Source: Planococcus sp. SK3692
Lineage (GTDB): Bacteria; Bacillota; Bacilli; Bacillales_A; Planococcaceae
Direction of reading: 5' to 3'
DNA: 64,000 nt
Assembly: GCF_028890485.2 (NCBI RefSeq)
Contig: NZ_JARCHV010000002.1
Span: 248,001 to 312,000 of the forward strand
The notes under the pieces: model-generated
Told to the model about the DNA's origin: nothing
What the model saw: the letters and a program-made list of their open reading frames with translations, nothing else
Database searches by the model: none
Shown: piece by piece, positions 14,830 to 17,086 of the stretch
Layout of the letters: the number at the start of each line of letters is the position of its first letter
Numbering within the stretch: the stretch's first letter is position 1
Program-made: the position numbers and the translations under genes

Positions 14830-14862
14830 AAAACCCGGTGAGTTTTAAACTCACCGGGTTTT
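14830..14862. terminator. bidirectional terminator
   Basis: Perfect stem AAAACCCGGTGAGTTT and its complement with a 3-nt loop and T-runs on both sides. It lies between catalase and the convergent DUF1538/PII operon. Confidence 0.9.
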
Positions 14863-14863
14863 G

Positions 14864-15553
14864 TTATGGATTCAAAGAAGAGTGATTGACGCCGAATACG
14901 TTTTCCACGTCAATCAAGAAGGCGATGCCTTTTCCGGGTGCGTCGAGATCGACGGCTTGTTCGATGCTCGCGACCACTTTTTCCGCGAATGCAGAAGGCA
15001 CCAATGTCAGGACAACGTCTTTTTCTGGGTCGATGGTAAAGTTCATGAACTTTTTCTGTTCGTTGACTCCTGTGCCGCGCCCTTCCAAGATCGTTCCGCC
15101 TTCAGCGCCGGCTTTTGCAGCTGCTTTGACAACTTGGCCGGAGTCTCCGGAGTTAACGATGGTCACAATCAGTTGGAAATCTTTTGGTTCTGGCATCTTT
15201 TCCACTCCTCGCTTCTTTTTTCGGTCGTCTTCACGGTCGGTGAGATGGGGGACTCCCAGCAATTGGCTGAGGTGGACAGTAAAGCCGAGGCCGTAACCTG
15301 ATTTGCCCAATTTTCCGGCATGGCTGATCGCTTCTGCAACGGCCAGTTCGATTTCACCGTCGACAGCGATAAAGACAACATCCTTTTCGTGGGTAGCGGG
15401 AAGCCCGAGAAAAGTAGGCTTTTCGTTTCTACCGATTCCTTCCGCATACAGCACCGTCGCCCCGTCGGCACCGGCTTGTTTCGCAGCTGCGATGACCTCT
15501 CTCGAAGCGCCGCGTTTTACGATGGCAATCATCAGTCTATGATTCAGATTCAT
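14864..15553 (-). CDS. tandem PII-like signalling protein linked to DUF1538
   Basis: A 229-residue soluble protein made of two GlnB/PII-like ferredoxin-fold units: residues 5-105 (MIAIVKRGASREVIAAAKQAGADGATVLYAEG, later EKDVVFIAVDGEIELAVAEAI) and 125-225 (QLIVTIVNSGDSGQVVKAAAKAGAEGGTILEGRG, EKDVVLTLVPSAFAEKVVASI). The pattern of a GA..GGT turn followed by a flexible loop is PII-like, but the T-loop Tyr used for uridylylation is not evident. Classical PII is one such unit forming trimers, so a tandem protein would assemble differently. Start ATG 15553 is preferred: AAAGGCAGG lies 11 nt upstream and it overlaps the DUF1538 gene by 17 nt. It probably senses a nucleotide and controls the two membrane proteins. 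Confidence 0.7.
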   Translation of the reverse strand: MNLNHRLMIAIVKRGASREVIAAAKQAGADGATVLYAEGIGRNEKPTFLGLPATHEKDVVFIAVDGEIELAVAEAISHAGKLGKSGYGLGFTVHLSQLLGVPHLTDREDDRKKKRGVEKMPEPKDFQLIVTIVNSGDSGQVVKAAAKAGAEGGTILEGRGTGVNEQKKFMNFTIDPEKDVVLTLVPSAFAEKVVASIEQAVDLDAPGKGIAFLIDVENVFGVNHSSLNP

Positions 15554-16280
15554 GGGTTTGGTTACCTGCCTTTCGATTAAAGAGTAAGCCGACAACGAGT
15601 ACGGAAATGATCGGCGTCAATGCCACGAGCGCAATCATCCCAAAGCCATCGACAAGCGGATCCCGCCCTTCTGTGACAGAGGCGATGCCGACAGCTACAG
15701 AGACGATGAACGTGACGGTCATCGGCCCGGTAGCGACGCCGCCTGAGTCAAAAGCGATGGCGATGAATGTGCGCGTGGAGAAAAAAATCAGGACCAAGGC
15801 GATAAGATAACCAGGCAGGATAAAATACCAAATCGACCAGCCCGTCAAAATCCGCAGCATCGACAAAGCGATGGACAAACCGACCCCCGTCGATAAGGTG
15901 TAGAGCATGACCTGCGAGGAAATATAACCGCCCGTTTCACGGTCGACTTCTTCATTCATGATGCGGACAGCCGGTTCGGCGAATGTCGCGACAAAGCCGA
16001 GCACAAATCCAATGGGAATAATCGCCCAGCGATACTGCCAATCACCAAGTTCCGCACCCATCAACTCGCCGAAGGGCATAAAGCCGACATGGACGCCTTG
16101 AAGGAAAAAAGCCAATCCGAAAAACGTCAAAATGAAACCGAGTCCGGTTTGCAGCACGCGTTCTTTCGGCAATTTGAGCATGAACAATTGAAATACACTG
16201 AAAAACACGACAAGCGGGAGGAGGGCTATGCTGACTTCAATCAGCACTTCCCCGAAGCCCTGGAAAATATGCAAGTTCAC
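15537..16280 (-). CDS. DUF1538 membrane protein (second copy)
   Basis: A 247-residue integral membrane protein with about seven hydrophobic segments, belonging to the uncharacterised DUF1538 family. Conserved family-like patches shared with its neighbour are the MPFGELMG loop, TFAEPAVRIM and AFDSGGVATGPMTVTFIV, the last being rich in small polar residues inside a membrane segment, as in substrate or ion paths of secondary transporters. Its start overlaps the upstream DUF1538 gene by 4 nt and its end overlaps the PII-like gene by 17 nt. The function is unknown; a heteromeric transporter gated by the PII-like protein is my inference. Confidence 0.7.
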   Translation of the reverse strand: MNLHIFQGFGEVLIEVSIALLPLVVFFSVFQLFMLKLPKERVLQTGLGFILTFFGLAFFLQGVHVGFMPFGELMGAELGDWQYRWAIIPIGFVLGFVATFAEPAVRIMNEEVDRETGGYISSQVMLYTLSTGVGLSIALSMLRILTGWSIWYFILPGYLIALVLIFFSTRTFIAIAFDSGGVATGPMTVTFIVSVAVGIASVTEGRDPLVDGFGMIALVALTPIISVLVVGLLFNRKAGNQTHESES

Positions 16281-16972
16281 CGGTACAGCACCCCCAACAG
16301 CATGACTGCGATGATGGGCCCGATCGATGCCAACCCGATCAAGCCGAAGCCTTCGCCGCTGCTTGGTTTATCGGAACGCAAGACGGAAGCGACGCCAATG
16401 CCCAGCGCCAAAATGAAAGGAACTGCCATCGGGCCGGTCGTCACGCCGCCGGCATCGAAAGAAATCGGGATGAATGCTTCAGGCACAAAAAAGGAAAGCA
16501 GGAAAACCAAGGTATACCCTCCGATCAGCATATAATGGATCGGAATGCTAAACAGCGCCCGGACCATCGCCAAGGCAACGAAAATCGCCAAGCCGACCGA
16601 CACAGATAAGATCAGAATGTTTCTGGAAATATCCCCTCCTGAAACGTCCTCGATTTGATTGGCCAATACGCGGACATCCGGTTCTGCAATTGTGACGGCG
16701 AGCCCGAGCACCAGGCCCGTCCCGATGATCAGCCACGGCTTACGGGTCAAAGGCAACTTTTTGCCGATCAATTCGCCGATCGGAAGCAGCCCTGCATTGA
16801 CTCCGAGCAGGAACAGAAAAAAGCCGGTTCCGACAAAAACGACTCCGATCAAAAACTGCAATAGTGCTTCGAGCGGCAGGCGGATAATCAGGACTTGAAG
16901 CAAGATGACGACAATCGTAACAGGCAGAATGGCAGAGGCAACTTCTTTGAATGTGCTTTTGACATTTTCCAT
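16277..16972 (-). CDS. DUF1538 membrane protein (first copy)
   Basis: A 231-residue membrane protein with about seven predicted helices and the same ordered motifs as the next gene: LLPIGELIG, TIAEPDVRVL and SFDAGGVTTGPMAVPFIL. It is the first gene of a three-gene minus operon (DUF1538, DUF1538, PII-like), all joined by overlaps. The two membrane proteins are diverged duplicates, as expected for a pseudo-symmetric two-subunit channel or carrier. ATG 16972 follows AAAGGAGATGC. It is divergent from the pentapeptide-repeat gene. No enzyme motif is seen and the transported compound is unknown. Confidence 0.7.
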   Translation of the reverse strand: MENVKSTFKEVASAILPVTIVVILLQVLIIRLPLEALLQFLIGVVFVGTGFFLFLLGVNAGLLPIGELIGKKLPLTRKPWLIIGTGLVLGLAVTIAEPDVRVLANQIEDVSGGDISRNILILSVSVGLAIFVALAMVRALFSIPIHYMLIGGYTLVFLLSFFVPEAFIPISFDAGGVTTGPMAVPFILALGIGVASVLRSDKPSSGEGFGLIGLASIGPIIAVMLLGVLYR

Positions 16973-17086
16973 ATAGCATCTCCTTTACGGCGGATTTGGC
17001 TTGATGCAATTCGCGCGGCGTATGGGACAAGGAACTCTATAATCGATAAGATAAAGAAGAGTATATGCGAACCAGGAGGGCTGATG

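Follow-up and report, generated by a model that had tools for sequence, protein, structure and literature searches.

In a 64,000-nucleotide stretch of the genome of Planococcus sp. SK3692 (hereafter the window), three overlapping open reading frames (ORFs) on the minus strand encode two membrane proteins of the DUF1538 family, here called A and B, and a soluble protein composed of two PII units. The explanation we favour, with a probability of roughly 55%, is that the PII protein gates a monovalent cation/H+ antiporter built as an inverted dimer of A and B. The two membrane proteins would operate as an antiparallel pair, with an ion path running between broken helices that bear nearly invariant acidic residues (in the motifs AEP and FD-GGV-TGP of each half). 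The co-translated PII protein would assemble on the cytoplasmic face, the predicted site of the N-terminus of A and the C-terminus of B, and would gate the antiporter open or shut in response to a small ligand, probably a nucleotide, lodged between PII units. The gene order, the overlaps, the near-constant linkage of the genes, the opposite charge bias of the two membrane units and, through confident models, the fold of the parts are all directly supported. The exchange of Na+, Li+ or K+ for H+ by the window pair is suggested by analogy with a characterized relative, and the binding of PII to the pair, the gating and the ligand would follow from the combined evidence. Antiport activity in the family has already been published; what would be new are the antiparallel arrangement and the partnership with PII, neither of which was found in print.

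Pfam assigns both A and B to DUF1538 (PF07556; E values of 5.7e-74 and 2.2e-76, and 248.4 and 256.3 bits against a cut-off of 22.6) and recognizes two P-II stretches in the soluble protein (PF00543; E value of 4.5e-16, 59.5 bits against a cut-off of 25). A and B share 86 identical residues over 230 aligned positions, and the N- and C-terminal halves of the PII protein 35 over 107. An earlier interpretation, made from the nucleotide letters and ORF translations without database searches (the sequence-only reading), had described two diverged DUF1538 copies next to a soluble protein with two PII-like units, and the ORFs, the Pfam matches and the identity between A and B all agree with it.

To what extent the two families belong together becomes apparent from a survey of other genomes. 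PF07556 was encountered in 22 of 40 relatives of the window's organism, in 139 of 398 Bacillota, in 8 of 198 genomes from the phylum of Pseudodesulfovibrio, in 32 of 196 from the phylum of Methanolobus (31 over the cut-off) and in 10 of 247 from the phylum of Balneolaceae (9 over the cut-off), each scan giving none in 14 controls. The 260 loci obtained reduce to 235 distinct systems. Counting was confined to the 228 whose sequence extends 500 bp or more beyond the last DUF1538 domain, which left out seven. In 222 of the 228, which are a non-random set (one scan took the 80 closest only, the Bacillota scan took matches above about 220 bits, and gammaproteobacteria lie outside the survey), PII domains follow directly downstream on the same strand, at a median distance of 53 bp and a largest one of 457 bp. 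The linkage persists in 201 of 207 systems once the 21 from the window's relatives are removed, and PII was likewise present in all six additional loci. Linked systems were recovered from Bacillota, from the phyla of Pseudodesulfovibrio, Methanolobus and Balneolaceae, and from two plasmids of alphaproteobacteria; of the 72,556 records in the plasmid collection, nine match A and the identical nine match the PII protein. The coupling of a PII gene to a transporter gene, a trait of PII-gated transporters, is what these 222 systems display.

No other neighbouring family recurs: counts reach at most 4 of 88 on the upstream side and 3 of 90 on the downstream side in a control that considered the nearest open frame on each side (88 frames out of 127 candidates and 90 out of 116, with genes called as simple longest frames). 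The sequence-only reading had regarded the pair and PII as one system and had proposed a survey of genomic neighbours; the linkage bears out the former, and the latter has singled out PII as the recurrent downstream family. DUF1538 occurs in single, paired and fused forms. The 228 systems comprise a fused pair with tandem PII (72), a split pair with one PII (65), with tandem PII (48) or with two PII genes (19), and a single DUF1538 with a single PII (6), the remaining layouts being represented by a few systems each. Three loci (L214, L218 and L229) contain two complete DUF1538-PII systems in tandem, each with its own PII, and in one close relative (L016:2150-2664) the tandem PII frame is interrupted while both DUF1538 genes are open, reflecting a real loss or a sequencing error.

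Antiport activity in the DUF1538 family

The sequence-only reading considered the system undescribed and its substrate unknown, which no longer holds for the family, as UmpAB of Halomonas zhaodongensis, a DUF1538 pair, is on record as a Na+(Li+,K+)/H+ antiporter of two components (PMC5484666). According to the available text of that paper, UmpAB was discovered through rescue of the E. coli strain KNabc, and in vesicles it exchanged Na+, Li+ and K+ for H+, with a pH profile that peaks at pH 9.0. UmpA co-immunoprecipitates UmpB and their co-expression is required for full activity (PMC5484666), in keeping with the two-subunit membrane system that had been envisaged for the window. The same text predicts seven membrane segments for each protein, notes that the genes overlap, and names neither a PII protein nor a topology, inverted or antiparallel. 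The window pair is like UmpAB in its Pfam family, its overlapping genes and its seven predicted segments per protein, but it scores far under the equivalog cut-offs of NCBIfam (121-124 bits versus 490 for UmpA and 113-115 versus 500 for UmpB). A and B are thus DUF1538 relatives rather than equivalogs of UmpA and UmpB. A search of the Protein Data Bank (PDB) for sequences related to DUF1538 gave no credible relative (three matches with a best E value of 0.3, and none up to E 10 in a second search), and no published link of PII with DUF1538 was found in the literature outside subscription papers and preprints.

Some further associations concern ions and pH. DUF1538 is listed among features predicting growth pH (PMC13255231), and UmpAB homologues are given as a marker trait of salt-water cable bacteria (PMC10030654). 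In 8 of the 20 loci L001-L020 the operon is immediately preceded, on the same strand, by mnhG, a gene of the Mrp antiporter (identified by Pfam in L001 and L014, and by phmmer in L006, L009, L010, L011, L012 and L013), which fits a role in ion and pH balance.

Several points weigh against a PII-gated cation antiporter in the window, the low equivalog scores being one of them. The antiport evidence comes from one overexpression study in E. coli, where UmpAB was active and where the available text has no PII (PMC5484666), and the same type of activity has been reported, judging from titles, for several unrelated families. Going by record titles, DUF1538 is widely carried by gut Clostridia, for which salt is no obvious stress. 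In the other 12 of the 20 loci mnhG was not found within the available flanks, and in the window's own genome the mnhG genes reside on another contig. Six systems have no PII, namely two from Sutcliffiella (L060 and L062), one from Metabacillus (L067), L227, L168 (followed by frames that include one of the IS605 OrfB type) and a fragment in L207, and the sole P-II gene of the Sutcliffiella and Metabacillus genomes is canonical-like. PII thus appears inessential to transport and, given also the activity of UmpAB in E. coli without it, would modulate transport rather than enable it. Coevolution analysis of A, B and the last PII unit (200 systems, effective number Neff 150) yielded noise, from which no interface could be predicted; its top signals, at the ends where the genes overlap and at scattered residue pairs, were not used as evidence. 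As a separate observation, the gene next after the DUF1538 pair in the PII-less Metabacillus locus (L067:7514-8458) encodes a YitT/DUF2179 protein, a type whose C-terminal part is termed PII-like in PMC6516651.

Some of these points also suit an alternative that we consider unlikely, although it deserves attention: the antiparallel pair may be PII-gated but have a different physiological substrate (bicarbonate, for instance, or some other small ion or a metabolite), in which case the alkali-cation phenotype seen in E. coli would be secondary. The dependence on one heterologous study and the abundance of DUF1538 in gut Clostridia are compatible with it, as are the existence of SbtA-SbtB, a bicarbonate transporter with a PII-like partner (PMC8352866, available text), and the fact that Rfam scans revealed no cation riboswitch at the window or in 31 further loci. 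On the other hand, the vesicle assays, with their pH profile, recorded exchange of Na+, Li+ and K+ for H+ (PMC5484666), Mrp neighbours occur in 8 of the 20 related loci, and the associations with pH (PMC13255231) and salinity (PMC10030654) point to cation/H+ antiport. One locus (L027:2913-3085) does have a c-di-AMP riboswitch, located directly 3' of the PII genes and presumably serving the next gene.

The PII protein

By its modelled fold the soluble protein is a PII protein. The model of the tandem protein (made, like the PII alignments, from positions 14864-15550 and hence without the initial Met) has a mean predicted local distance difference test (pLDDT) score of 88.0, and both of its units match PII structures. 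Foldseek relates it to GlnK2 (1.1e-5), structure comparison (VIA) to PDB entry 3lf0 (Z 11.9, root-mean-square deviation (rmsd) 2.7, 100 residues), and the closest PII in the PDB by profile is chain H of 9p1x (E value of 8.8e-8).

The ligand is probably another one than that of canonical PII proteins, since the residues that we take to bind 2-oxoglutarate and ATP in the latter, Gln39, Lys/Arg90 and Arg101, are replaced in most or nearly all sequences. In none of the groups does Gln rank among the three most frequent residues at position 39; Gly is found there in 69 of 70 single units and 115 of 123 tandem C units. Ile predominates at position 90 in every group. Arg101 occurs in 24 of 123 tandem C units and 13 of 123 tandem N units and falls outside the three commonest residues in the other groups. 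The T-loop is somewhat shorter, with 14-17 residues in the 70 single units compared with 20 in the three canonical PII proteins that made up the reference set. These PII proteins have features of their own as well, including a GRGTG-HE stretch, a Glu-Lys ending the T-loop and a PG-GI in the B-loop, all of them most pronounced in single and C units and less so in N units.

The shortness of the T-loop means that the known plug mechanism may not apply, and it is in this light that another explanation should be viewed, one we regard as improbable: PII could be made with the pair yet act elsewhere, the pair sequestering it at the membrane as a sensor read-out while its targets are other ones, or it could aid assembly of the pair. 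Its linkage is to the DUF1538 pair alone, with no other recurrent neighbour, which speaks against this explanation.

Comparison with known systems is instructive here. SbtA-SbtB is similar in that a transporter shares an operon with its own PII-like gene and SbtA is built of inverted repeats, but SbtA is a trimer, each chain having 5+5 segments, and the T-loop that SbtB inserts is a structured one (PMC8352866), whereas the window system is predicted to be a 7+7 inverted pair with shorter T-loops. AmtB-GlnK likewise combines a membrane protein gene with a PII gene; GlnK, however, is a canonical PII, whereas the PII of the window type is devoid of the residues conserved in the three canonical proteins. 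NrtBCD is, as we understand it, an ABC transporter for which a canonical PII serves without being encoded as a dedicated partner. This nitrate transporter resembles the present system in having PII bound to a transporter that is neither Amt nor SbtA (PDB 8wm7, by entry title), and it provides a precedent for PII on a non-trimeric partner.

Two loci (L140 and L197) encode chains with three PII units, as detected by our own profile, beside one fused DUF1538 protein, and the similar L139 encodes a chain with two. The fused DUF1538 proteins of all three are enlarged (frames of 630-736 amino acids). Pfam performs more weakly on these loci: L140 is unmatched, L197 gives one stretch and L139 one sub-threshold match. 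The three-unit chains hint at one PII trimer, perhaps a covalent one, per antiporter pair.

Predicted topology of the DUF1538 pair

The architecture of the membrane part can be examined in a fused relative (L073), a single chain of two homologous halves, which was modelled with 72 sequences (pLDDT 90.6, predicted template modelling score (pTM) 0.90). Each half of the model has seven membrane segments, with breaks in the third (at AEP) and the sixth (at TTGP); in A, too, the motifs AEP and FDAGGVTTGP are predicted to sit at helix breaks. The acidic residues at both breaks are nearly invariant across 213 systems. In the first unit E97 is conserved in 96%, R138 in 96% and D173 in 98%, and in the second unit E102 in 100%, D178 in 99% and R143 in 89%. 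The paired motifs emphasized by the sequence-only reading are therefore retained as far as the key acidic and Arg residues are concerned; its GE motif turned out weaker (E67 of the first unit, 73%), and the Arg of its AEP-VR is not among the sites conserved in at least 50% of the 213 systems.

Orientation was assessed by the charge bias, that is, the number of Lys and Arg on one set of alternate loops minus that on the other, with loop limits taken from the model. In fused proteins the first half has a positive bias in 71 of 72 cases and the second a negative one in all 72. In split pairs the first unit is positive in 134 of 134, and the second is negative in 126, zero in five and positive in three. 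Taken together, 205 of 206 first units are positive and 198 of 206 second units negative, counts that are not independent events as the sequences are related. Given this opposite positive-inside bias and the seven segments per unit of the model, the DUF1538 units very probably form an antiparallel pair; an odd number of segments necessarily makes the two halves of a fused protein inverted. Extrapolating from the relatives, we predict A to have seven membrane segments with its N-terminus inside and C-terminus outside, and B to have its N-terminus outside and C-terminus inside.

Seven complete single-gene forms (a count excluding a truncated single, L254, and L233, a single beside a fused pair) have a bias of +1 to +4 in five cases and -1 in two, L261 and L262, which are close relatives; the means for first and second units are +5.5 and -3.8. 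No further DUF1538 match turned up in five of the seven genomes, several of the assemblies being incomplete, and such a lone protein would have to pair with itself. DUF606 presumably has five segments per unit, compared with the seven predicted in DUF1538. YdgE/YdgF has four, and dual-topology proteins have a published bias between -2 and 1 (PMC3962082, available text). DUF606, YdgE/YdgF and SMR proteins resemble DUF1538 in having homologous units of opposite charge bias, with DUF606 existing as single, paired and fused forms; the same text mentions no PII partner for them, whereas the DUF1538 pair has a linked one. A parallel topology of A and B, the charge pattern being a by-product, is very improbable, for even though eight of the 134 split second units have zero or positive bias, the sequences are related and the topology is predicted, 206 first and 206 second units differ in sign at homologous loops with nine exceptions, and seven segments, an odd number predicted also for UmpA and UmpB (PMC5484666), force inversion in the fused forms.

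A possible relationship to the CaCA/NCX exchangers gains no support from profile comparison with 18 Na_Ca_ex proteins (probability 1.5%) or from Foldseek (no match under 0.001). NCX_Mj occupies ranks 1-11 of the structure search (best Z 7.2, 179 residues, rmsd 5.2), which is under the trust line for helical models; this weak resemblance, covering residues 32 to 384 of the L073 model, is a lead only.

The operon and its implications

Features of the operon are listed in table 1. It is flanked by a catalase gene that converges on it and, at the other end, by a pentapeptide-repeat gene that diverges from it, so the three genes form a stand-alone operon. The stop codon of A overlaps the start of B by 4 bp (GTGA). 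B and the PII gene overlap by 17 bp, the PII start being more likely the ATG at 15553, inside B, than the TTG at 15595; the overlapping frames of the sequence-only reading are thus upheld with the PII start moved. The inverted repeat behind the operon is weak evidence for a terminator, with two such sites in the scan versus a shuffle mean of 3.7. In the leader no sigma-70-like promoter was listed and no Rfam match was obtained, the yield of the promoter scan being no greater than chance. Elsewhere in the genome Pfam detects P-II in one further place, a canonical PII.

Table 1. Features of the DUF1538-PII operon, in window coordinates.
Feature	Position	Strand	Remarks and basis
DUF1538 protein A (first unit, UmpA-like position)	16277..16972	-	231 aa; ORF list and Pfam
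DUF1538 protein B (second unit)	15537..16280	-	247 aa; GTG start; ORF list and Pfam
Tandem PII protein, two ferredoxin-like PII units and linker	14864..15553	-	Pfam, model, Foldseek, start codon
Inverted repeat, 15 pairs, terminator-like, strong	14830..14862	. (scan lists -)	between operon and converging catalase gene
Leader before A, with RBS-like (ribosome-binding site) AAAGGAG	16973..17083	-	sequence

If the PII protein does gate the pair, the DUF1538 family of cation/proton antiporters would gain its missing regulator, PII control would extend to a new type of transporter, an inverted pair, and the annotation 'nitrogen regulator' beside DUF1538 in 222 of 228 systems would be explained. More tentatively, and with slightly less confidence than even odds would imply, these systems may represent a class of cation/proton antiporters under PII control that is widespread among bacteria and archaea yet has gone unrecognised, in which a PII without the nitrogen-signal residues docks on an inverted transporter of twofold symmetry and couples a metabolite to Na+/K+ and pH balance. 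DUF1538 would also offer a clear case of the evolution of inverted membrane pairs, one in which single, paired and fused forms all survive.
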